A DNA stretch of 64,000 nt. Origin: Asanoa hainanensis. Lineage in GTDB: Bacteria > Actinomycetota > Actinomycetes > Mycobacteriales > Micromonosporaceae. Below, piece by piece: positions 6,014 to 53,391 of this stretch; within the stretch, counting starts at the first letter, position 1, and each line of letters begins with the position of its first letter. Location: positions 411,552 through 475,551 of the forward strand of contig NZ_FZPH01000004.1 in the NCBI RefSeq assembly GCF_900188485.1. The letters are read 5' to 3'. The position numbers and the translations under genes were made by a program. The notes under the pieces are model-generated. The model searched no databases. It saw nothing but the letters and a program-made list of their open reading frames with translations, and was not told where the DNA came from.

Positions 6014-7248
6014 GCGGGCACCGCCGCCGAGATCGCCGTGCCGGACCGTGGCTCGGACTCGACCTGGAGCGTCCCGGACAACCCCTCGATCCGTTGCCGC
6101 ATCGCGACGAGACCGAACCCGCCGGCCGACACCGGTGGCACGGCCGGATCGAAGCCACACCCGTCGTCGCGTACGTCGAGCGCCACCGAGTCGTCCAGAT
6201 AGGACAGGGTCAGCCCGACCCGGCCGGCGCCGGCGTGTGCCGCGACGTTCGCGAGCGCCTCCTGGGCGGTACGCAGCAGCGCGAGCTCCGCCTCCGGCGA
6301 CATCGGCCGCTCGGTGCCGGTCGTGGTCACCTCGACCGGGATGCCGTGCCGGGCCGACCAGCTCCGGGCGACCCCAGCCAGCGCGTCGGCCAGCCGGGCG
6401 TCCCGCAACGGCTCGGGGCGCAGCGCGTGCACCGACCGGCGGGCCTCCCGCAGGCTCTCCCGGGCCAGGTCGGTGGCGGCGGTCAGGTGCCGCCGCCACC
6501 GGTCGGTCTCCGCTGCCGCCGAGGCCGCCTGGAGCTGGGTGATGATGCCGGTCAGCCCCTGCGCCAGGGTGTCGTGGATCTCCCCGGCCATCCGCTGCCG
6601 CTCGTCGTGGACCCCGGCCTCCCGCGCCTGGGTCAGCAGGCGCTCGTGCAGGGCGGCGTTCTCGGCGAGCGTGCCCTCCAGCTGCCGGTTCGCTTCGGCC
6701 AGCTCGTCCATCGCCCGTCGGCGGGCGGCGCCCTCCTGGTCGTTGTTCCAGTCGATCCAGGCGAACGCGCACATCGGCACGGCGTTGATCAGGATGATCG
6801 CCGCGTACCACCCGATCGCCTCACCGGAGTCGAAGGCGATCCCGGACGCCTGGGCGAGGCCGGCCGCGACGGCGACCGCCGCGACCCCCGGGATCCGCCA
6901 CGGCCACCGCAGGATGCCGAAGGCGAAGAAGTAGCCGGCCGGGGTCAGGAAGCCGAACCAGGGCGCGATCATGACGAGGGCCAGCAGGATCGCCAGGAAG
7001 CCGACGAAGAACACCGCCATCAGCACCGGCCGTACGCGCCACGCGGGGCGCAGGGTGTAGAGGCAGAACACCCACACCGCCGCCAGCAGGCAGAGCCCCA
7101 GGACCTGCAGGGTCTCCCGCGTCGAGTCGGTCAGCAGGGGGCTGAACCCGCCGAGGAAGGCCAGCAGCGCGTACGGAGCCAGGTTCGCCCACCGGGCCCA
7201 GCGGAGGGTGGCCTCGTCGGCCTCCGACCACGGCATCGCGTTCGGCAT
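6010..7248 (-). CDS. Sensor histidine kinase (HisKA_3 type)
   Basis: 412 residues. Five or so hydrophobic segments in residues 20-160 form a membrane sensor; a short coiled region follows (about 170-210); the HisKA_3 dimerisation box ERQRMAGEIHDTLAQG carries the phospho-accepting His225; a HATPase domain ends the protein (VRDDGCGFDP, GGFGLVAMRQR). This is the DesK/NarX-like kinase class that pairs with LuxR-type regulators. It starts 9 bases after the permease stop. Membrane-sensor kinases of this arrangement often sense envelope or antibiotic stress; the signal here is unknown. Confidence 0.93.
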   Translation of the reverse strand: MPNAMPWSEADEATLRWARWANLAPYALLAFLGGFSPLLTDSTRETLQVLGLCLLAAVWVFCLYTLRPAWRVRPVLMAVFFVGFLAILLALVMIAPWFGFLTPAGYFFAFGILRWPWRIPGVAAVAVAAGLAQASGIAFDSGEAIGWYAAIILINAVPMCAFAWIDWNNDQEGAARRRAMDELAEANRQLEGTLAENAALHERLLTQAREAGVHDERQRMAGEIHDTLAQGLTGIITQLQAASAAAETDRWRRHLTAATDLARESLREARRSVHALRPEPLRDARLADALAGVARSWSARHGIPVEVTTTGTERPMSPEAELALLRTAQEALANVAAHAGAGRVGLTLSYLDDSVALDVRDDGCGFDPAVPPVSAGGFGLVAMRQRIEGLSGTLQVESEPRSGTAISAAVPA

Positions 7249-7257
7249 GGTTGGAAC

Positions 7258-8004
7258 CTACTCCCACCGGAAGAGGCGGACGCCGAGCGAACCGGTCCCC
7301 ACGACGTAGCCGGCGAGCAGCAGCAGCCGCCAGGCCGGCGGCCAGTGACCCGCCGTGGAGTCGGACAGCGCCTGGACCGCGGCGCCGAGTGGTGTGGCCT
7401 CGCTCACGTGCCGCAGCACCGGCGGCATGGCCTCGATCGGCAGCCACAGCCCGGCGAAGAACATCATCACGTAGAACAGCACGGACCCGATCGCGTTGGC
7501 CGCCTTCGCGGTCGGGGTGACCGCGGCCACCAGCACCGCGACGCCGATCAGGGCCAGGGCGGCGAGCACCGCGCTGAGCGTGAACGCGAGGGGCTGTCGC
7601 GGCAGCGGCACGTCGAACGCGAGCCGCGCCACCGCGAGCAGCAGCACGACCGAGACCAGCGCCGTGCCGAGGCAGATCGCGAACTGGGCGCCGAGGACCT
7701 GGGCCGGCCCGACCGGGGTGGTACGCAGCCGGCGCAGCACCCCCTGCTCCCGGTAGCTGGCCAGCGTCGGCGGGAGGCTGTTGAGCGCCAACATCGCGAT
7801 CACGAAACCCACCAGGATCGGCGTGTACGTGTAGAGCAGCGGCTGCCCGTCGATGCCGTTGGCCGGATCGGTGAAGAAGTCGAGGTTGCCGAACACGCAC
7901 AGCAGGGCGGTCGGGAACAGCACGCCGAAGATCGGCCCGACCTTGTCGCGCAGGAACAGGGTGAACTCGGTGGCGGTCAGCCGCCGCAGGGCGTCAGTGG
8001 ACAT
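7258..8004 (-). CDS. ABC-2 type transporter permease
   Basis: A 248-residue membrane protein with about six hydrophobic segments and the ABC-2 family layout: cytoplasmic N-terminus (TATEFTLFLRDK), a long first segment, and a conserved EQGVLRRLRTTPVGP stretch before the central membrane segments. It would form the channel with the ATPase encoded just upstream, whose 3' end it overlaps by 11 bases. The cargo is unknown; drugs or lipids are usual for this exporter class. Confidence 0.9.
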   Translation of the reverse strand: MSTDALRRLTATEFTLFLRDKVGPIFGVLFPTALLCVFGNLDFFTDPANGIDGQPLLYTYTPILVGFVIAMLALNSLPPTLASYREQGVLRRLRTTPVGPAQVLGAQFAICLGTALVSVVLLLAVARLAFDVPLPRQPLAFTLSAVLAALALIGVAVLVAAVTPTAKAANAIGSVLFYVMMFFAGLWLPIEAMPPVLRHVSEATPLGAAVQALSDSTAGHWPPAWRLLLLAGYVVGTGSLGVRLFRWE

Positions 8005-8743
8005 CGGTGGTCTCCCCGGTCAGTGCGACGAAGGCGTCTTCCAGCGTGGCCCGCTCGACACCGAGGTCGGCGGCGGCGCGTTTGGTCAGGGCGGCCGGGG
8101 TGTCGACGGCGACGACCCGGCCGGCGTCGATCACGGCGACCCGGTCGCAGAGGCGCTCGGCCTCGTCCATGAAGTGGGTGACCAGCAGGATGGTGACGCC
8201 GCTGGCCCGGACGTCCTCGATCAGCCGCCAGGTCTCCCGCCGGGCGCGGGGGTCGAGCCCGGTGGTGAGCTCGTCGAGCACGGCGACCCGCGGGTTGCCG
8301 ATCAGTGCCAGCGCGATCGAGAGCCGCTGTTGCTGGCCGCCGGAGAGCTTGCCGAACCGGGTGTCGCGGATGCCGTCGAGCCCCAGCGCGGCCATCAGGT
8401 CGGCCGGGTCGGCCGGCCGCCGGTAGAACGACCGGTAGAGGTCGAGGGCCTCGCCGACCCGCAGCTTCTCGGGCAGGTGGGCACCTTGGAGCTGGACGCC
8501 GAGCCGCTGGGTCAGCTCGGCGCGGTCGCGCACCGGGTCGAGCCCGAACACCCGGATCGTGCCCCGGTCGGCCCGGCGCAGCCCTTCCACGCACTCGACC
8601 GTGGTGGTCTTGCCCGCGCCGTTCGACCCGAGGATCCCGAAGATCTCCCCCTCGTCGACCCGGAACGAGACGTCGTCGACGGCGACCTTGTCGCCGTACC
8701 TCTTGTGTAACTCCTGAACCTCGATAACCGCTGTCATGCCCAT
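7994..8743 (-). CDS. ABC transporter ATP-binding protein
   Basis: About 249 residues from the first of two nearby starts (8743 or 8737, MGMTAV). Walker A GSNGAGKTTT, signature LSGGQQQRLSIA, Walker B VAVLDELTTGLDP and the switch His in LLVTHFMDEAE are all present; the residue after the Walker B Asp is Glu, as needed for hydrolysis. It is the first gene of the exporter/two-component operon that runs to 5384. Longer in-frame sequence upstream is Arg-rich and unlike the family, so the internal start is preferred. Confidence 0.92.
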   Translation of the reverse strand: MGMTAVIEVQELHKRYGDKVAVDDVSFRVDEGEIFGILGSNGAGKTTTVECVEGLRRADRGTIRVFGLDPVRDRAELTQRLGVQLQGAHLPEKLRVGEALDLYRSFYRRPADPADLMAALGLDGIRDTRFGKLSGGQQQRLSIALALIGNPRVAVLDELTTGLDPRARRETWRLIEDVRASGVTILLVTHFMDEAERLCDRVAVIDAGRVVAVDTPAALTKRAAADLGVERATLEDAFVALTGETTDVH

Positions 8744-43530: not shown

Positions 43531-45042
43531 ATGGCGGTGGAGCATTTCGATGTGCTGATCATCGGTGCCGGGATCTCCGGCATCGGCGCCGGGCGCTACC
43601 TCAAGACGGAGCTCCCGGGCAAGACGTTCGCGATCCTCGAGGCCCGCGGCGCGTCCGGCGGCACCTGGGACCTGTTCCGCTATCCCGGCACCCGGTCGGA
43701 CTCCGACCTGCACACCTTCGGGTACGCGTTCAAGCCCTGGCGCGACAAGGAGGCCATCGCCTCGGCGCCGCGGATCCTCTCGTACCTGCGGGAGACGGCG
43801 ACGGAAAACGGCCTGGACCCCCACATCCGCTACCACCACCGGGTACGCGCAGCGGCGTTCGACTCCTCGACGGCACTGTGGACGGTGGCCGTGGACCATG
43901 TCGGGTCGCCGTTGACGCTGACCGCCAACTGGGTGTTCTGCGCGGGCGGCTACTACCGCTACGAACAGGGCTTCACACCGGAGTTCCCGGGGCGGGATCG
44001 CTTCCAGGGCACGATCGTGCACCCGCAGCACTGGCCCGCGGAGCTCGACCACCAGGGCAAGCGGGTGGTCGTGGTCGGCAGCGGCGCGACCGCGGTCACC
44101 ATCGTGCCCGCGATGGCCGAGACCGCCGCACACGTGACGATGCTGCAACGCACGCCGACGTACATCCTGTCGATGCCGACGAAGGACGCGATCGGCAACG
44201 CGTTGAAGAAGTATCTCGGGCCGGTCCGCGGGCACGCCCTGACCCGGCGCAAGAACATCGCGATGCAGCGCGCGATCTGGAAGTTCTGCCAGCGCCGCCC
44301 CGAACGGGCGCGCCGGGTGATCCGCTGGCTCAACGCCCGACAGCTACCCGAGGGCTATCCGGTCGACGAGCACTTCCGGCCGCCGTACAACCCGTGGGAC
44401 CAACGCTTGTGCCTGGTGCCGGACGGCGACCTGTTCAAGGCGATCCGGGCGGGCACGGCCTCGGTCGTCACGGACCGGATCGAGACGTTCACCGAGGACG
44501 GCATCCTTCTGGGCAGCGGCGCGGAACTGAAGGCCGACATCATCGTCACGGCCACGGGCCTGCAGGTGCAGGCGCTGGGCGGGGTGCCGCTGACGGTCGA
44601 CGGGTCGCCGGTCAACGTCGCCGACACGATCGCGTACAAGGGCATGATGCTCTCGGGGGTGCCGAACTTCGCGTTCATCGTGGGCTACACGAACTCGTCC
44701 TGGACGCTCAAGGTCGGGCTGCTCTGCGCGCACTTCTGCCTGCTGCTGGCCCACATGGACAAGCACGGCTACGAGCTGTGCCGCCCGGAGCCCGCCGACC
44801 CGGACATGCCCACGCGCCCGTTCCTGGACTTCGGCGCTGGCTACATCCGCCGGGTCATCGACCAGCTCCCCCGCCAGGGCGACCGCCTACCGTGGCTGAC
44901 CTCGATGCACTACCACACGGACGTCAAAATCCTCCGAGCCGACCACGTCGTCGACCCAGAGCTCCACTTCGGCCACGTCGCTACCGATCGTGTTGCGGAA
45001 GTGTCGGGCCACGTGGGAGATCAGCAAATGCCGGCTCGATGA
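43531..45042 (+). CDS. FAD-dependent Baeyer-Villiger-type monooxygenase
   Basis: 503 residues. FAD motif IIGAGISGIGAGRYLK, BVMO fingerprint FQGTIVHPQHWP (fits FxGxxxHxxxWP) and the NADP motif VVVVGSGATAVT. It would insert oxygen into ketones or hydroxylate other substrates using NADPH and FAD. The family normally ends near residue 480 (VVDPELHFG); the last 20 residues run into the 3' end of the convergent Uma2 gene over 62 bases, so the stop may be a secondary one. Divergent from a PucR regulator. Confidence 0.9.
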   Translation: MAVEHFDVLIIGAGISGIGAGRYLKTELPGKTFAILEARGASGGTWDLFRYPGTRSDSDLHTFGYAFKPWRDKEAIASAPRILSYLRETATENGLDPHIRYHHRVRAAAFDSSTALWTVAVDHVGSPLTLTANWVFCAGGYYRYEQGFTPEFPGRDRFQGTIVHPQHWPAELDHQGKRVVVVGSGATAVTIVPAMAETAAHVTMLQRTPTYILSMPTKDAIGNALKKYLGPVRGHALTRRKNIAMQRAIWKFCQRRPERARRVIRWLNARQLPEGYPVDEHFRPPYNPWDQRLCLVPDGDLFKAIRAGTASVVTDRIETFTEDGILLGSGAELKADIIVTATGLQVQALGGVPLTVDGSPVNVADTIAYKGMMLSGVPNFAFIVGYTNSSWTLKVGLLCAHFCLLLAHMDKHGYELCRPEPADPDMPTRPFLDFGAGYIRRVIDQLPRQGDRLPWLTSMHYHTDVKILRADHVVDPELHFGHVATDRVAEVSGHVGDQQMPAR

Positions 45043-45538
45043 GGCGCGAGATCTGGCCCGACTGCTCTTCGGCGACCTGGACATAGTCCGCGCCTCGAAG
45101 TCGAAACAACCGGAGCGCAAGATCCGCTGCCGGTCCGTAGGCGAGCAGGTAGTAACGGATGCCTGCGTCCGCATAAAGCCGAGGCTTGGTCACCTGGTCC
45201 GCGACGGCGCTAACAGGTTCGACGATCTCGCAAACCAACCGCACGTCCGCGGCCTCGACCGCCAAGCCTTCGTCGTCGGCCTCCGCCACGACGATGTCCG
45301 GAATCAAGATCCGGTCGGGTCCAAGACGAACGTTCACCCCCGGATACACGACGAGCCCGGCTGCTCGGGCTGCCCCGTCCAGCTCCGTCGCGAGCTCGAA
45401 CGCGATGAGCTGGTGAGACAGATCGCCCGCCGGGGTCACCAGCAGGCTTCCATCGATGAGCTCTATGCGCGGGTGGGTCTCGCCCAGGTCGAAATAGCCC
45501 TGTTCGGTCCACGGACCTACACCCAGGTGATCCAGCAA
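44981..45538 (-). CDS. Uma2 family endonuclease
   Basis: 185 residues in the PD-(D/E)XK-type Uma2 fold: RIELIDGSLLVTP, Asp in RILIPDIVV, Glu in RLVCEIVEP and Lys in VTKPRLYADAG. Function is unknown; the fold suggests a nuclease. The only in-frame start is TTG at 45538, 18 bases after the nurA stop, and an in-frame TGA precedes it, so it appears to be the tail gene of the herA-nurA operon. It overlaps the BVMO gene by 62 bases. Confidence 0.78.
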   Translation of the reverse strand: MLDHLGVGPWTEQGYFDLGETHPRIELIDGSLLVTPAGDLSHQLIAFELATELDGAARAAGLVVYPGVNVRLGPDRILIPDIVVAEADDEGLAVEAADVRLVCEIVEPVSAVADQVTKPRLYADAGIRYYLLAYGPAADLALRLFRLRGADYVQVAEEQSGQISRLIEPAFADLPRGPTLPQHDR

Positions 45539-45556
45539 GGGAGAGCTCCCGAAACG

Positions 45557-46516
45557 TCAGACGGGTACCGCGGCGCTGCGGGCGGCGGCCAGGGTCAGGG
45601 CGCGGTGCAGGAGGCGGGAGTCGCCGAGTAGGGCGCGGAGGCGGCGTTCCAGGCCCGCGATCGGGATCAGGTTCTGCGGGGCGCGCGGGTCCTTGTACGG
45701 GTTCGAGGCGAACCTCGGCAGCGTGACCAGCGACAGGTCGGCGAGCTCGATCGCCTCCTGGGCCGGGATCTCCGTCGTGCACTCGACCCGGACGATGCCC
45801 GCCCACGGTGCGCCCGCCGGGCCCGGGAGCCGCAGGTACCACGAGTAGCCGCCCCACGCCGTGCCCATCAGGAAGACCGGCGACCGCTCACCCGGGCGCA
45901 GGGCCGTGACCACGTTGGTCAGGGCCGCGTCCAGATATTGGCTCTGCTGCGTCTTCACGTAGCCGATCGTGCGGCTGAGCTGGCGGCGGTTGCGCAGCGG
46001 GCCGTCCAGGACCAGCAGGTCCTCGGACTCGCCGCGGACCGACGTCGAGATCGCCACCTCCAGCGCCGTCAGCGGGCCCTGCACCGCCGGCACCAGGCGG
46101 GCCGGGTCCGGTGCGCCGGCGATCTGGCGCACGCCGTAGCGGACCGAGCCGGCCTCGATGTCCGTCGCCGTCGGGGACGTCGTGAACAGGCCGCGTTCGA
46201 CCAGCGTGCCGGCCAGCGTCGCCGCGCCCGCGCGCAGGTCACACCGAACCACGCCGGCCGCGTACGACGCCGCCAGGCCCGGGTGCGACGTGCCGTCCTC
46301 CTCGCGGGTCCACAGTGTCGCGTCGATCCGGCGCACGCCGTCGACCAGCAGCACCACGTCGGGCGCGCGGACCGTCGGTGGGGCGGTGAGCGGGCGCCAG
46401 GCCGCCGCAGGCAGCTCCACGTCGGTGTTGATCTGGGCCGTGCTCTGCGAGACCGGCGCCGCCTCGAAGGAGGCTCCGTACGCCGGGTCCCAGTTGTCGA
46501 TGAAGTATTCCGTCAT
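45557..46516 (-). CDS. nurA: NurA-like 5'-end nuclease
   Basis: 319 residues with the NurA pattern: an early Asp in VVLLVDGVRRIDA, a second in LLVLDGPLRNR, then the RTIGYVKTQQSQYL segment and a Trp-rich GGYSWYLRLPG region with WAGIVRVEC. NurA proteins degrade the 5' strand at DNA ends with Mn and depend on HerA. Its ATG overlaps the sbcC stop by ATGA, and herA and sbcD lie upstream. The homology is by pattern and context; the sequence is clearly divergent. Confidence 0.78.
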   Translation of the reverse strand: MTEYFIDNWDPAYGASFEAAPVSQSTAQINTDVELPAAAWRPLTAPPTVRAPDVVLLVDGVRRIDATLWTREEDGTSHPGLAASYAAGVVRCDLRAGAATLAGTLVERGLFTTSPTATDIEAGSVRYGVRQIAGAPDPARLVPAVQGPLTALEVAISTSVRGESEDLLVLDGPLRNRRQLSRTIGYVKTQQSQYLDAALTNVVTALRPGERSPVFLMGTAWGGYSWYLRLPGPAGAPWAGIVRVECTTEIPAQEAIELADLSLVTLPRFASNPYKDPRAPQNLIPIAGLERRLRALLGDSRLLHRALTLAAARSAAVPV

Positions 46517-48990
46517 ATCCCGCTCCGGGTGATGTGGGCGACGGATCGCGCGTCCTTGCTGACGTCGAACCGCACCGGCACGCGTTCGGCCAGTGCCGGC
46601 ACGTGGGTGACCACGCCGACCATCCGGTCGCCGCGGGCGGCCAGGCCCTCCAGCGTCGCGGCCACGGTGTCCAGCGTCGCGGCGTCCAGCGTGCCGAAAC
46701 CCTCGTCGAGCAGGATCGACTCCAGGCTCGCGGCCGAGGTCGACATGCCGGCGAGCTGCTCGGCCAGCGCCAGCGCCAGGGCCAGCGACGCCTGGAACGT
46801 CTCGCCGCCCGACAGCGTGCGGACGCCCCGGCGCAGGCCGGCGTCGTGGTGGTCGACGACCGAGAACTCGCCCTTCTCGTGTACGAGGTCGTACTGCCCC
46901 GCCGACAGCTCCCGGAGAATCCGCGACGCGCCCTCGACCAGCAGGTCGAGCGCCTCCTCCAGCAGCCAGCGCTCGAAGTTGTTGGCCCGCAGGTGTCCGG
47001 CCAGCGCCTTGGCCACCTGGCCGTCGCGCTCGTGTGCCACGCGCTTGTCGAGCAGCCCGCGCACCTGCGCCCGCCGCTCCTCGACCCGCTCGTGTGCGGC
47101 CGTGGCCCGTTCGACGGCCACCGTCGCGGCTCGGACGTGGTCGTCGGGTGCCGGCAGCCCGGCCTCGACGAAGGCGGCGTCCAGCCGCGCCCGCACCACC
47201 TCGACCGCGGCGTCAGCCTCGGCGGCGCGCGAAGCCAGCGTGGCGCGGGCGGCGCGGCGGGTCTCCACTTCGGACACCGACCAGCCGGCCAGGGCCGACC
47301 ACGACTCGGCCAGGTCGTCGCGCGCGGCGGCCGGTGGCGCGAACCGGGCCACCGCGTCCCGGGCGGCGTCGAACTCCTGCCACCCGTGGGTCAACCGCTG
47401 CTCCGCCGCCGCGCGCGCGGTCACCGCGGTCCGCGCCTGCTCGCGGGCCGACTTCAACGCCGCGACCGACGCGTCCAGCGACTTCTGCAACCCGGCCAGG
47501 GTCGCCAGCTCCCGGCGGAGGGCGGTGACGCCCGGCGACGTCGCGAGCTGCGCGTCGAGGGCGGCCAGCCGGGAGGCGAGCTGCTCGTGCTGGGCGCGGG
47601 CCCGGTCGAGGGTGCGCTCCAGGGCCCGGGCCGCCCGCTCCCGCTCGGCCACCTGGGCCTCGGCCTGCTCGTGCGCGGCCTTCGCCGCGTGCCCCGCCTG
47701 TTCCGCGGCGGGCACCGCCGAGGTCGCCGGGACCGCCGGCACCGTCGTCACCGGCTGCTCGCAGACGGGACAGGGAGCACCGGCATGCAGGTGTACGCGC
47801 AGCGCCCCGGCCCGGTCGGCCGCCTGGGCGTCCTGGTAGGCCCGCCGGGCGGCGTCCAGCTCGCTCGCCGTGCGCAGCGCCGCCGCCCGCGCCGTCTCCA
47901 AGGCCGCCGCCGCGGTGCGGTGCTCGGTGGTGGCGGCGGTGAGTCCGTCCTGGAGGGACGTCGACTCGGCCGCGACCGCGTCGCGTTCCTCGTGCGCGCG
48001 CAGCAGCAGCCGCAGCGCGGAGGCGTCGCCGGCCGCGGCGAGCTCGCCGCGCAGCTTCTCCTCGTGCTCCTCGGCCGCCGTCACCGCGTCGGTGGCCGCG
48101 GCGGCCGTCTCGCGCGCGTCGGCCGCCGCCGAGGCCAGGGCGGCCACACCGCGCGGCGCACGGACCCGGTCGAGCAGCGCGATCTCGTCGTCGATCGCCG
48201 ACAGCCCGGCCGCCGCCGAAACAGCCGTCTGCCGCGCCTCGTCGAGCGCCGGCATGTCGTCGGTGACCCGGGTGGCCAGGGCCAGCATCGCCTCGACCCG
48301 CTCGGCCGCGTCGGCCAGCGCCTCGTCGGAGGTGTCGTCGAGCCCGGCCAGCAGTTGGTCGACGGCCCGCAGGTCGGCGTCGGCCTGTTGAGCCCGGGCG
48401 GTGGCCCGCTTCTGGACGTCTTCGTAGACGTGCAGGCCGAGCAGGTTGACCAGGATCTGCTGGCGGGTGGCGGGCTTGGCGTGCAGGAAGTCGGCGAACT
48501 GGCCCTGCGGGAGGATGACGCAGCTGGTGAACTGCTCGTACGGCAGCCCGACGGCGTGCAGCACCGCCTCGTCCATCTCGCCCGGGGTGCCGGCCAGCAC
48601 GTCGCCGAGGTCCTCCGGCGTCATCCCGGTGTCGAGTTTGGACACGTCGAAGTTGTCGGGCATCTGCTGGAGGCCGGCGCCGCCGGTCTTCACGTTGCCC
48701 CGGCTGTCGCGGCGGACCACCCGGGTGGCCACGTAGCGGGCGCCGCCGGACTCGAACACCAGCCGCACCCGGGCCTCGGTCGCCGAGGGCGACAGCGCGT
48801 TGGCGATGCCCCGGCTGCTCCCCCACCGCGGCACCTGGCCGTAGAGCGCGAAGCAGATCGCGTCGAGCACGGTCGACTTCCCGGAGCCGGTCGGCCCGAC
48901 CAGCGCGAAGAAGTCGGCGTCCATGAAGTCGACGGTCGTCTCGTCCCGGAAGACCGTGAACCCCGCCATGTCGAGCCGCAGCGGCCTCAT
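46513..48990 (-). CDS. sbcC: Rad50/SbcC ATPase
   Basis: 825 residues: Walker A LVGPTGSGKSTVLDA near residue 35, a long Ala/Arg/Glu-rich coiled coil, a zinc-hook CPVC at residues 407-410, a second coiled coil, the signature TLSGGETFQASLALA and Walker B ILLDEGFGTLD. It pairs with SbcD as a DNA double-strand-break processing complex. The ATG overlaps the sbcD stop by four bases. It is shorter than the 1048-residue E. coli SbcC but normal for actinobacteria. Confidence 0.94.
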   Translation of the reverse strand: MRPLRLDMAGFTVFRDETTVDFMDADFFALVGPTGSGKSTVLDAICFALYGQVPRWGSSRGIANALSPSATEARVRLVFESGGARYVATRVVRRDSRGNVKTGGAGLQQMPDNFDVSKLDTGMTPEDLGDVLAGTPGEMDEAVLHAVGLPYEQFTSCVILPQGQFADFLHAKPATRQQILVNLLGLHVYEDVQKRATARAQQADADLRAVDQLLAGLDDTSDEALADAAERVEAMLALATRVTDDMPALDEARQTAVSAAAGLSAIDDEIALLDRVRAPRGVAALASAAADARETAAAATDAVTAAEEHEEKLRGELAAAGDASALRLLLRAHEERDAVAAESTSLQDGLTAATTEHRTAAAALETARAAALRTASELDAARRAYQDAQAADRAGALRVHLHAGAPCPVCEQPVTTVPAVPATSAVPAAEQAGHAAKAAHEQAEAQVAERERAARALERTLDRARAQHEQLASRLAALDAQLATSPGVTALRRELATLAGLQKSLDASVAALKSAREQARTAVTARAAAEQRLTHGWQEFDAARDAVARFAPPAAARDDLAESWSALAGWSVSEVETRRAARATLASRAAEADAAVEVVRARLDAAFVEAGLPAPDDHVRAATVAVERATAAHERVEERRAQVRGLLDKRVAHERDGQVAKALAGHLRANNFERWLLEEALDLLVEGASRILRELSAGQYDLVHEKGEFSVVDHHDAGLRRGVRTLSGGETFQASLALALALAEQLAGMSTSAASLESILLDEGFGTLDAATLDTVAATLEGLAARGDRMVGVVTHVPALAERVPVRFDVSKDARSVAHITRSGI

Positions 48991-50132
48991 GCGGACGTCT
49001 CCTCATAGAGCTCGTCGAACAGTTCCTGCACGCCCTCGTCCGAGACCCCGCGGCTGGCCAGATAGTCGGCGAACAGGTCGCGTGGCGACCGGCCAGCACG
49101 TTCCTCGGCCCGCGGGCCCGGGGCCGCGGCGATCATGTCCGGATCGATCCGCACTTCCAGCGCGCGGGGCAGCATCTCCTGGACCTCTTCGCGCAGGCCG
49201 GCCCGGGGCATCTCGCGCACGTAGACCCGCAGCCAGGCATCGCCCGTCTTCAGGGAGGCCAGCTGTTCGAGGGAGCCCCGGACGGTACGCAGCGCGGCGG
49301 CCGACGTGACCGGCACCTCCCGTACCTTCGCGGCGGTCTTCGCGGTGACCTCGACCACCGAGACGGCCGGCACGTTCTCGCCCTCGCCGAAGTCGATCGC
49401 GAGCGGGCTGCCGCTGTAGCGGACCGGGCACGGGCCGAGCACCGTCTGGGCCCGGTGCAGGTGGCCGAGCGCGACGTAGTGCGTGTTGGTCGGGAACACG
49501 GTGGCCGGCACGGCGTAGCCCAGCACCGTCTGCGACTCGCGCTCGCCGCCACCCTGGCTGGCGCCGACCACCGTCACGTGCGCGGTGACCAGGTTGACCA
49601 CGCCCGCCTCGCCGAAGCCCTCGGTCAGCTTGCCGAGCAGCCGGGCCAGGTGGTCCGCGTAGGTCTGCGTCGCCTCGGCCGCGGTCAGGTCGTACATCTC
49701 GACCGCGCGGACGGCGTACCGCTGCGACAGGAACGGCAGTGCGACCAGCCGCCACCGCTCGCCGCCCGCGGTGGTGCCCTCGATGACGTGCTCGGCGGGG
49801 TTGTCGCGGACGCTGCCGCGCAGCGTGATGCCGGCCGCCTCGGCCCAGGGCCGCAGGGCGTCGAGCGCGGCCCCGTTGTCGTGGTTGCCGCCGATCGCGA
49901 CGACGTCGGCGCCGGTGCGCCGCAACGCCGACAGGGCGCGGGTGACCAGCCGGGTCGACTCCGGCGACGGCGCCGCGGTGTCATAGAGGTCGCCGGCCAC
50001 GATCACCAGGTCGGGCTGCTCGGCCTTGGCGATCTCGACCACCTGGGCCAGCACCGCGACGTGCTCCTCGACCCGCGACTGTCCCTTGAGGACCTTGCCG
50101 ACGTGCCAGTCGGAGGTGTGCAGGACGCGCAC
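48987..50132 (-). CDS. sbcD: Mre11/SbcD nuclease
   Basis: 381 residues of the Mre11/SbcD calcineurin-like phosphoesterase family: HTSDWHVGK, IVAGDLYDTAAP, GGNHDNGAALD and TAHVTVVGAS carry the metal ligands. It nicks and degrades DNA ends with SbcC. GTG at 50132 begins directly at MRVLHTSDWH. It starts 12 bases after the herA stop, so both are one transcript. Confidence 0.94.
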   Translation of the reverse strand: MRVLHTSDWHVGKVLKGQSRVEEHVAVLAQVVEIAKAEQPDLVIVAGDLYDTAAPSPESTRLVTRALSALRRTGADVVAIGGNHDNGAALDALRPWAEAAGITLRGSVRDNPAEHVIEGTTAGGERWRLVALPFLSQRYAVRAVEMYDLTAAEATQTYADHLARLLGKLTEGFGEAGVVNLVTAHVTVVGASQGGGERESQTVLGYAVPATVFPTNTHYVALGHLHRAQTVLGPCPVRYSGSPLAIDFGEGENVPAVSVVEVTAKTAAKVREVPVTSAAALRTVRGSLEQLASLKTGDAWLRVYVREMPRAGLREEVQEMLPRALEVRIDPDMIAAAPGPRAEERAGRSPRDLFADYLASRGVSDEGVQELFDELYEETSA

Positions 50133-50144
50133 CGGATCAGCCTC

Positions 50145-51908
50145 CTAGAAGGGGATGTCGTCGTCGGACAGCGCGCCCGACCGCGAGCCGACCACCGCGA
50201 ACGGGTCGGCGGACTGGGTGACCGAGCGCAGCGAGCCGGTCGGCGCCGCGCCCGCCTCGGAGTGCCGGGTCGCCCACGACGGGAACGGGAACTCCAGGCA
50301 GAGCGGCACCGGGATGTCGGGCTGGTTGACGAACATCGTGCCGGGCTTGGCCAGCAGCACCCGTTGCCGCTGCGCGGGCGGGAGGAAGCCGTATTCCGGG
50401 CGCGACGCCTCGGCCGGGTCGAGCCGGCCGACCACCCGCACCGCCGAGTTCGTGACGATGCGGCGCTCGACCTCGCTGGCGGTCTGCTGCGCGCCGACCA
50501 GGATCACGCCGAGCGAGCGGCCCCGCTCGGCGATGTCGAGCAGCACCTCCTTGATCGGCGACGAGCCTTCCCGGGGCGCGTATTTGTTGAGCTCGTCGAG
50601 CACCACGAAGAGCAGCGGCTTGGCCGTGCCCTTCTTCTCCTTGCGCTCGAACTCCTTCTTGAGCGTCACGCCGACCACGAACCGCTGGGCGCGGTCGGGC
50701 AGGTTGTGCAGGTCGACGACGGTGACCTGGGCGCTCTCGTCGGTGTTGATCTGGTGCGGCCGGCGGGTGGCCAGATCGCCGCGGATCAGCCGGCCGAGGT
50801 CGCGCTTGCTGGCGATCAGCCGCCGGGCGAACGCGTTGACCGTGCCGAGCCCGACCGCGCTGCCGGTCCAGGCGAACCGGGTCTCGTCGTCGGAGAGCTG
50901 CGCGACCACGAAGTCGACCAGGTCGGCGTACGAGCTCAGCCGCGTGCCGGCGATCGCCACGCCACCGTCGGCCGGCACGGCGTGCCGGGCCAGGTGGGCG
51001 GTCACGGCGTGCACGACCATCGTGTATTGCTGCCGCTCGTCGTCGGCGTCGGCGAACACGTACGGCAGCAGCGAGCCGGCGCAGAACTCCTCGAGCGTCC
51101 AGTAGAAGCTGTCGACGCCGGTCAGGCGGCTGCTGACGTCGGGCGTGCCGGATGCGTCACCCATCCTCGGCGGCGCGTAGACCCGGACGTCGTCGAACGG
51201 CTTGGCCGGCAGCCCGAGGGCCGCGTACGCCGCGACGGTCTTCTCGTCGAGCTTGACGTTGGGGTGGTCGAGGAAGAGCAGGTCCTCGCCCTTGACGTTG
51301 AAGATCAGTGCCTTGGCGTTGACCGCGTCGCCACCCAGCGCACCGGAGTTGAAGACCGCGTAGAGCAGGAACGTCGCGAAGCTCGTCTTGGTGGCGACGC
51401 CGGAGATGCCGGAGATCGACACGTGCGCGCCCCGGGTGCCGTCGAGGAAGTCGGCGTTGAGGTAGACCGGGATGCCGTCGCGCCCCGTGCCCATCGGGAT
51501 CTGCCGTTCCATCCGGTCGAAGTGCAGCGCGGCGGCACGCAGGTCGCCGGTGGCCCGGTGGACGATCGCGCCCGGCGCGGGCGGCACGTAGAGCTCGGGG
51601 TCGACCCGGGTGACGGTGATCTCGGCGGCCTCCTGCACCTGGGCGGGCAGCGTGCCGTCGGCGATCGAGAAGACGTCGCTGTCGAAGACGGCGCCCTCGT
51701 GCCGGGCCCGGACCTGGGTCACCACGCCGGCGATCCGCACCGGTGGCCGGTCGGGCAGCTCACGGGTGGTCACCACGACGTCGTCGAGCTGCAGGTAGCT
51801 GCCGGGCGCGACCGCCGTCCAGAACTGCAACGGAGTGGCGTCGGAGGTGCCGAGCACCCGGCCGACCGCGGTCTGTTCACCCAAAGCTTCCACTCCCACG
51901 ACTCGCAT
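50145..51908 (-). CDS. herA: HerA-like DNA-translocating ATPase
   Basis: 587 residues. A small N-terminal beta barrel (about 1-130, HAS-barrel type), then a P-loop ATPase with Walker A ISGISGVATKTSF, where Thr replaces the usual second Gly before Lys, Walker B LLFVVLDELNKYAP, and an arginine-finger type region (RRIVTNSAVRVVGRLDP). HerA forms a hexamer that drives NurA. The start at 51908 (MRVVGVEALGEQ) is preferred over GTG at 51935. It heads the herA-sbcD-sbcC-nurA(-uma2) operon. Confidence 0.87.
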   Translation of the reverse strand: MRVVGVEALGEQTAVGRVLGTSDATPLQFWTAVAPGSYLQLDDVVVTTRELPDRPPVRIAGVVTQVRARHEGAVFDSDVFSIADGTLPAQVQEAAEITVTRVDPELYVPPAPGAIVHRATGDLRAAALHFDRMERQIPMGTGRDGIPVYLNADFLDGTRGAHVSISGISGVATKTSFATFLLYAVFNSGALGGDAVNAKALIFNVKGEDLLFLDHPNVKLDEKTVAAYAALGLPAKPFDDVRVYAPPRMGDASGTPDVSSRLTGVDSFYWTLEEFCAGSLLPYVFADADDERQQYTMVVHAVTAHLARHAVPADGGVAIAGTRLSSYADLVDFVVAQLSDDETRFAWTGSAVGLGTVNAFARRLIASKRDLGRLIRGDLATRRPHQINTDESAQVTVVDLHNLPDRAQRFVVGVTLKKEFERKEKKGTAKPLLFVVLDELNKYAPREGSSPIKEVLLDIAERGRSLGVILVGAQQTASEVERRIVTNSAVRVVGRLDPAEASRPEYGFLPPAQRQRVLLAKPGTMFVNQPDIPVPLCLEFPFPSWATRHSEAGAAPTGSLRSVTQSADPFAVVGSRSGALSDDDIPF

Positions 51909-52540: not shown

Positions 52541-52632
52541 GCGTCGTCCCTCGAATAGGGTGGCCGGATGAGCTGCGACTGTCAGCACCGTACCCCGATG
52601 GCCGCCACCCCAATCGGCTCCGCGGTGGCCGG

Positions 52633-53391
52633 ATGAGCCCGCCGCCGATCCGGGCGTTGTGGAGCGTCGACGCAGCTCAGCCAGGTGGTGCGGAACTGGA
52701 CGACGAGGCCCTGACCAGGTGCTACGCGCGTGGCACGGCGCCGACAGTTCGTGTCAATTTCGTGACCAGCGTCGATGGCGCGGTCGAGGTCGACGGCTAC
52801 TCGGCGGGCCTGTCCGGGCCGGCCGACAAGCGGGTGTTCGGCATCCTGCGCAAGGTCTGCGACGGCCTGCTGGTCGGCGCCGGCACCATGCGCCACGAGG
52901 GCTACCGCGCGATCAAGCTCGACGAGCCGCGCCGGGCCTGGCGGCTGGCCCAGGGCCTGCCCGCCGTGCCGACCCTGGTGGTGGTCTCCGGGCGGCTCGA
53001 CGTCGACCCGGCGTCCCCGGTGTTCACCGAGGCACCCGTCCGGCCGGTCGTGCTGACCACTACCGTGGCCACCGCGCCGAAGGGCCTGGACCAGGTCGCC
53101 GACGTGGTACGCGTCGGCGAGCGCGAGCTCGACCTCACCGCGGGTCTGGCCGTCCTGCGCGAGCGCGGGCTGAACCAGATCCTCTGCGAGGGCGGCCCGC
53201 ACCTGCTCGGCACGCTGACCGCGGCGGACCTGGTCGACGAGCTGTGCCTGACCGTGTCGCCGCTGCTGGCCGGCCCGGGCGGGGGCCGGATCACCGCCGG
53301 ACCGCACCGCGCCGGCGGCCCGCTGCCGCTCCGCCTGCACCACTCGCTGCTCGGCGACGACCTGCTGCTGCTCCGCTACACGCGGCGCTGA
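52633..53391 (+). CDS. Pyrimidine reductase family protein (RibD C-terminal type)
   Basis: 252 residues: VNFVTSVDGAVEVDGYSAGL, DGLLVGAGTMRHEGYRA, ILCEGGPHLLGTL and LTVSPLLAGP match the RibD reductase/DHFR-like fold, which reduces a pyrimidine or pterin intermediate with NADPH. It is a stand-alone copy without a deaminase domain and not near rib genes. Its 3' end overlaps the membrane-protein gene by 16 bases. Confidence 0.85.
   Translation: MSPPPIRALWSVDAAQPGGAELDDEALTRCYARGTAPTVRVNFVTSVDGAVEVDGYSAGLSGPADKRVFGILRKVCDGLLVGAGTMRHEGYRAIKLDEPRRAWRLAQGLPAVPTLVVVSGRLDVDPASPVFTEAPVRPVVLTTTVATAPKGLDQVADVVRVGERELDLTAGLAVLRERGLNQILCEGGPHLLGTLTAADLVDELCLTVSPLLAGPGGGRITAGPHRAGGPLPLRLHHSLLGDDLLLLRYTRR

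Follow-up and report, generated by a model that had tools for sequence, protein, structure and literature searches.

The closest described relatives of the genes considered here are the HerA-NurA complex of Deinococcus radiodurans (structure 7f6d; PMC9960219), the archaeal herA/nurA/mre11/rad50 operons (PMC12977600, PMC5448004), the hepA(herA)-sbcD-sbcC cluster of the bacterium Oceanithermus profundus (PMC5448004) and the stand-alone SbcCD of bacteria. The D. radiodurans complex (drHerA-drNurA) digests the 5' strand during translocation (PMC9960219), and HerA-NurA is reported to be essential in Sulfolobus islandicus (PMC4351679). Its role is contested between end resection for recombination and plain destruction of duplex DNA (PMC12977600, PMC9960219). 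Here we describe a herA-sbcD-sbcC-nurA cluster in the 8.6 Mb genome of Asanoa hainanensis (Micromonosporaceae), within a stretch of 64,000 nucleotides (NZ_FZPH01000004.1, positions 411,552 to 475,551) that we call the window and in which its positions are counted. Judged by sequence, the four proteins are bacterial-type HerA, SbcD, SbcC and NurA with intact catalytic residues, and the quartet is a standard part of the Micromonosporaceae, not an oddity there.

An association of HerA-NurA with SbcCD is of a kind already known, since O. profundus provides a precedent for a bacterial herA with downstream sbcD and sbcC (PMC5448004). That cluster, a single case, was read there as archaea-like and as a later recruitment of sbcDC; it resembles the nurA-herA-sbcD-sbcC order found at 19 of the loci fetched here, whereas in the window herA comes first and nurA last. 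The locus shares with D. radiodurans the HerA and NurA matches and identical catalytic and pump residues, but differs in that its herA and nurA are in one operon with sbcD-sbcC. In addition, the Deinococcus-Thermus phylum is described as lacking RecBCD (PMC9960219), whereas the host genome has an AdnAB-like pair. The archaeal operons combine the same four activities (PMC12977600, PMC5448004), but the window proteins are of bacterial type. Among the matches listed in open-access full text, subscription papers being outside the scope, none describes the quartet in Actinomycetota or on plasmids, which is weak evidence that it is unreported; nor did the matches listed in the open-access literature searched include a report of its core status in Micromonosporaceae or of a separate SbcD lineage.

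Four genes on one strand with short junctions

Four minus-strand genes in the order herA-sbcD-sbcC-nurA were read from the window sequence. The first, herA (50145-51908, ATG at 51908), encodes a Deinococcus-type HerA DNA translocase of 587 residues, and is followed by sbcD (48987-50132, GTG start), encoding an Mre11-type nuclease of 381 residues, sbcC (46513-48990), encoding a Rad50-type ATPase of 825 residues with a CPVC zinc hook, and nurA (45557-46516), encoding an RNase H-like nuclease of 319 residues. On the same strand, a 12-base spacer (50133-50144) separates herA from sbcD, and four-base ATGA overlaps connect sbcD with sbcC (48987-48990) and sbcC with nurA (46513-46516), which suggests that translation of sbcD/sbcC and of sbcC/nurA may be coupled. 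A chance arrangement is excluded, because the four-gene order recurs at 61 of 67 named family loci and the checked catalytic residues of NurA and SbcD are invariant.

An earlier interpretation made from the letters of this stretch (the sequence-only reading) had proposed a HerA-NurA-Mre11(SbcD)-Rad50(SbcC) set with overlapping genes, one strand and these three junctions; the coordinates agree, the matches and motifs below bear out the four identities, and the P-loop, CPVC hook and nuclease residues that it mentioned were all located. Of the span that it gave, 44981-51908, the quartet occupies 45557-51908, and the remaining 44981-45538 is a separate Uma2-like open reading frame.

Identification of NurA and HerA

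The Pfam NurA model (PF09376) scored 17.7 bits against the 319-residue protein, below the curated cut-off of 21, and a better test of identity was therefore needed. The same model matched 22 of 41 NurA relatives at E <= 0.1 (best 2.5e-6); it is insensitive to this branch, and the structure matches decide. Against solved structures, phmmer matched the protein to D. radiodurans NurA (7f6d_H) at E 1.8e-19 and to Thermotoga maritima TM1739 at E 0.01, and a profile of the 41 relatives reached E 8.1e-55 for 7f6d_H and E 4.3e-20 for T. maritima 1zup; the archaeal NurA structures 2YGK and 3TAI were not among the matches of either search. The best AlphaFold2 model, built from 35 family sequences, had a mean predicted local distance difference test (pLDDT) score of 82.1 and a predicted template modeling score of 0.81 (the other four models, pLDDT 52-62). 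With this model, Foldseek retrieved 7f6d_G (E 3.3e-17, template modeling score 0.67) and 1zup (E 1.3e-14), with TdpAB and endonuclease V as the next neighbors, far behind. A structural match to NurA had been set beforehand as a check on the assignment, and on these sequence and model comparisons the protein is NurA.

Conservation was counted over stop-free members, with loci of generic SbcCD excluded and proteins shorter than 0.85 or longer than 1.5 times the window protein dropped. Mutation of drNurA D53, K201 or R309 abolishes nuclease activity (PMC9960219), and these residues correspond to D59, K188 and R278 of the window NurA, when the structure chain numbering is reduced by an offset of 20 residues. 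All five of D59, E153, D171, K188 and R278 are kept in 109/109 members, and W9 in 102/109; W9 lies, by eye and not by alignment, at about the place of drNurA W8, which stands beside the strand-splitting pin.

HerA was matched by phmmer to drHerA (7f6d_B) over both halves at E 1.6e-148 (498.8 bits), the next chains reaching only E 0.002 or worse. The drHerA residues K175, T176, D220, D487, E488, R495 and R552 correspond to K174, T175, D209, D438, E439, R446 and R503 in the window protein, R503 being read off the alignment. The first five are invariant in 107/107 members, and R446 and R503 are kept in 102 and 100 of them, respectively, indicating on sequence grounds a Deinococcus-type HerA with conserved ATPase (Walker A/B) and DNA-pump or pore residues.

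The operon SbcCD and its SbcD lineage

SbcD exceeded the cut-off of NCBIfam TIGR00619 (sbcd; 178.9 bits, cut-off 77.65) and matched the SbcD structures 4lty and 6s6v at E about 1e-33. Its DWH, GDLYD, GNHD, AH and GHLH motifs were found, and D8, H10, D48, N83, H84, H185, H224 and H226 are invariant in 110/110 members. SbcC matched TIGR00618 (sbcc) at E 1.3e-75 with 255 bits, under the curated cut-off of 478.5, and the SbcC structure 6s6v_C at E 2.6e-37; it carries Walker A GPTGSGKST at residue 32, CPVC at 407, LSGGE at 726 and LDEGFG at 761. The hook cysteines C407 and C410 are present in 105/105 members and the Walker lysine in 101/105. Bacterial models outscored archaeal ones for both proteins (SbcC, 255 versus 68 bits for Rad50; SbcD, 179 versus 52 bits for Mre11).

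In the host genome one SbcD and one SbcC were detected at E <= 0.001, both of the operon, and an AdnAB-like pair, with UvrD helicase and PD-(D/E)XK domains in both proteins, lies elsewhere. The idea of a module besides the usual repair set, advanced in the sequence-only reading, thus holds for AdnAB but not for SbcCD. Mutual exclusion of AdnAB and the quartet was considered and rejected, as adjacent long PD-(D/E)XK frames occur in at least five other operon genomes (G204, G342, G401, G545 and G585; G and L numbers are our genome and locus labels). Operon-type SbcD was found in all 61 family genomes tested, with 55-100% identity over the best match, and a second near-full-length SbcD only in G692 (29% identity). 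Among 20 genomes of the class without NurA, 14 had a clear SbcD (29-37% identity), four a weak partial match and two none. Of 11 NurA-positive genomes of the class, five (G378, G401, G460, G545, G585) have a generic SbcD in addition to the operon copy; in another of the 11, G581, no SbcD match was found in the genome.

Although the operon proteins share families, motifs and gene order with stand-alone bacterial SbcCD, a tree of SbcD only (70 rows, quick IQ-TREE run, Shimodaira-Hasegawa-like approximate likelihood ratio support only) has a branch with 100% support that splits 19 of 21 generic actinomycete SbcD from the operon-type rows. The other two, L208 (G519) and L210 (G182), fall among the operon-type rows and group with the nurA-first type; neither has herA or nurA within the 10.5 kb fetched. 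By sequence, the operon SbcD therefore belongs to a lineage distinct from that of most other actinomycete SbcD in the sample, and the ordinary SbcCD may have been displaced in Micromonosporaceae.

Distribution and phylogeny of the quartet

NurA was found in 197/200 family genomes. In the three negative genomes (G687, G695, G720), herA and sbcD are present, but the contig breaks off within sbcC and does not reach the place of nurA, so that loss of nurA is not shown there. By NurA similarity, Asanoa ishikariensis comes closest among named relatives (99% identity in the best segment). The order herA-sbcD-sbcC-nurA on one strand was seen in 61/67 named family loci, and the other six meet a contig end upstream. 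Four of the 61 (L045, L047, L075, L081) have a best match to sbcC that is partial, and 1.6 kb separates sbcD from sbcC in L097; the count therefore covers order and strand, not reading-frame integrity.

Elsewhere in the phylum, the quartet is patchy and occurs in two gene orders. In the class sample, 23/394 genomes had NurA, three of them family members. Of the 20 non-family loci 13 were fetched, and 11 of these hold the full quartet, arranged as in the window; a contig end truncates L225, and in L221 (G581, 6394-8729) nurA lies beside a partial sbcC match of 39% identity, with herA and sbcD not detected in the 14 kb fetched. L221 is possibly a degraded or rearranged operon. The phylum sample gave 67/296 genomes with NurA, two of them family members. 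Of the 65 loci from other classes 39 were fetched, and all four genes were present in 32, comprising 13 with herA-sbcD-sbcC-nurA (a count that leaves out G204, a family member) and 19 with nurA-herA-sbcD-sbcC. L103 and L120 are cut by contig ends, L104 has nurA alone, and in L108 the 4.9 kb of upstream sequence fetched contain no herA. A conserved neighborhood in related genomes, the other check set in advance, was thus found, in the family and at these further loci. The description of the set as unusual in an actinobacterium fits the class, with NurA in few genomes, but not the organism's own family, where it is near-universal.

The remaining three of the 39 loci, from one actinobacterial family (f18; L133-L135), show a remote NurA match below 25 bits next to a divergent HerA (25-26% identity). 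In L134 and L135, weak SbcD and SbcC matches follow downstream on the same strand, and these two may therefore be remote quartets.

In trees of NurA, HerA (46 rows each) and SbcD, the Micromonosporaceae group together with a support of 100 each and nest inside one clade of class operons (NurA 99, HerA 100, SbcD 98). Agreement is weaker at greater depth, where the branch dividing the two gene orders has a support of 98 in the NurA tree but 66 in the HerA tree. The agreement of the three trees indicates a long joint inheritance of the set. Patchy presence elsewhere reflects loss, transfer or both, which unrooted trees such as these cannot separate.

The quartet on plasmids

A tblastn search with the window NurA gave four matches in 72,556 plasmid records. 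L234 (NZ_CP134205.1, 2433-10002), the only Streptomyces record among them, carries herA-sbcD-sbcC-nurA on a linear plasmid of 451,593 bases; a helicase-domain protein follows the quartet, and a restriction endonuclease lies about 3.8 kb on. In the cyanobacterium Sphaerospermopsis kisseleviana, a conjugative plasmid carries the order nurA-herA-sbcD-sbcC, and a Nostoc plasmid has the four genes divided over the two ends of its circular record, which opens with sbcD and sbcC and closes with nurA and herA; the cyanobacterial loci are L237 (AP018315.1, 6449-13449) and L236 and L238 (NZ_CP091916.1), one of the plasmids being typed as conjugative. A Nonomuraea record of 11.85 Mb is chromosome-sized, and its unannotated quartet is visible by tblastn. 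With the cyanobacterial NurA and HerA as queries, no further plasmid record with NurA was found. NurA was absent from 50,697 phage records at E 1e-5, and two of these records carry a HerA of about 26% identity. Since one Streptomyces and two cyanobacterial plasmids carry the quartet, the module can travel, but does so rarely in the collections searched.

Neighboring genes

Five of the six window neighbors tested recur at just 2 to 7 of the 67 family loci. The sixth, a minus-strand open reading frame at 52582-53343, appeared to be a conserved neighbor, with 48/67 matches, but was rejected as a shadow of a RibD_C-domain reductase gene (52633-53391, plus strand), for which it stands; at 46 of the 48 loci the shadow frame has the opposite orientation with respect to herA.

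The Uma2-like open reading frame just downstream of nurA (44981-45538, minus strand) matches Pfam PF05685 at E 1.2e-18 and the PADLOC model PDC-S03 at E 2.1e-11. It was rejected as a fifth operon member, being beside the operon in 3/67 related loci, all from Asanoa.

Discussion

We propose, with a probability of roughly 70%, that the operon codes for a single machine that processes DNA ends. In Micromonosporaceae it would be a core repair module acting alongside AdnAB, and its SbcCD would be the ordinary SbcCD of the cell. SbcCD (Mre11-Rad50) would capture a double-strand end and clip it, blocked ends included, and a HerA hexamer would load next to it. By analogy with drHerA, this hexamer would translocate on double-stranded DNA, using ATP hydrolysis to drive the duplex into a NurA dimer (6:2); there the duplex would be split and the 5' strand digested, giving a 3' tail for RecA. 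End resection for recombination, fed or helped by SbcCD, is the most likely function on the model of the D. radiodurans complex.

Several points weigh against this proposal. The Thermococcus kodakarensis HerA-NurA digests mainly both strands, and resection is doubted there (PMC12977600), while nurA or herA mutants of Deinococcus and Thermus have modestly affected or even improved damage resistance (PMC9960219); mainly because of these two reports, we do not place the probability higher. Physical contact between SbcCD and HerA is a hypothetical part of the model. The acidic patch of drHerA that binds drNurA (D78, E80, D81) is partly kept, the window HerA retaining only the first of these residues in an alignment judged by eye. 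Upstream of herA (200 bases, 64 loci, shuffled control), a strict SOS box was found in 0/64 loci, an SOS box with one mismatch in 3/64 (shuffled mean, 3.1) and the PafBC core with one mismatch in 0/64 (shuffled mean, 1.9), and damage induction is therefore not indicated. Among the matches listed in the literature searched there was no experimental study of members of this actinobacterial group. A stronger version of the proposal, in which a specialized SbcCD lineage is the obligate partner of HerA-NurA in a four-protein resection holo-machine that displaced the ordinary SbcCD in Micromonosporaceae, acts parallel to AdnAB and is mobile on plasmids (Streptomyces, cyanobacteria), is one that we advance only tentatively.

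The four genes might instead be merely co-regulated, SbcCD acting on hairpins or blocked ends and HerA-NurA as an accessory nuclease. Such looseness would fit the Thermus nurA-hepA pair, described without adjacent sbcCD (PMC5448004), the nine other-class loci in which herA lies 0.3-5.3 kb from sbcD (L099, L102, L105, L109, L120, L122, L124, L125, L131), the incomplete sets of L104, L108 and L221, and L208 and L210, whose SbcD is operon-type by position in the tree but has neither herA nor nurA adjacent. We nevertheless consider co-regulation alone rather unlikely, as one SbcD lineage accompanies HerA-NurA in both arrangements of the genes, and plasmids from two phyla carry all four of them together. 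Less probable still is a quartet that destroys foreign double-stranded DNA ends as an antiviral or anti-plasmid system, with repair as a side role. The cutting of both strands in T. kodakarensis, for which its authors suggested an antiviral role (PMC12977600), the use of HerA as the engine of several defense systems, the distant fold likeness of NurA to TdpAB and the three plasmid quartets, one with the nearby restriction endonuclease, would all suit such a system. The PADLOC mad8 and HerA models also match the window HerA, weakly and partially (E 2.8e-7 to 5e-3), and SbcC partially matches the SMC-like models mad3 (8e-27) and LmuB (1.6e-20), as is possible for any Rad50-type ATPase. However, PADLOC models run against the window proteins gave no full-length defense-HerA match and no defense effector partner, and NurA had no PADLOC match at all. 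The near-core distribution is unlike that of a defense island, the neighbors are either rare at other family loci or, in the case of RibD_C, metabolic, and the operon SbcC and SbcD are the sole copies detected in the genome. The suggestion in the sequence-only reading of a possible defense module is accordingly unsupported.

That reading had also called the set archaeal-type, a label that does not fit: NurA matches Deinococcus and Thermotoga forms, HerA matches drHerA by far best, SbcC and SbcD match bacterial models, and no archaeal NurA structure was matched. Recent horizontal import from archaea, which the shared four functions of the archaeal operons (PMC12977600, PMC5448004) might bring to mind, is thus hardly credible, and in the trees, which are without archaeal sequences, the closest relatives are other actinobacteria, arranged in nested groups.

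Returning to the end-processing machine, its occurrence in Micromonosporaceae qualifies the view that bacterial NurA-HerA is confined to a small number of bacteria without RecBCD, for instance Deinococcus-Thermus (PMC9960219). A complete quartet in one operon, possibly backed up by an AdnAB-like pair, would provide a tractable bacterium for testing this debated machine. The Micromonosporaceae are mesophilic, cultivable bacteria.

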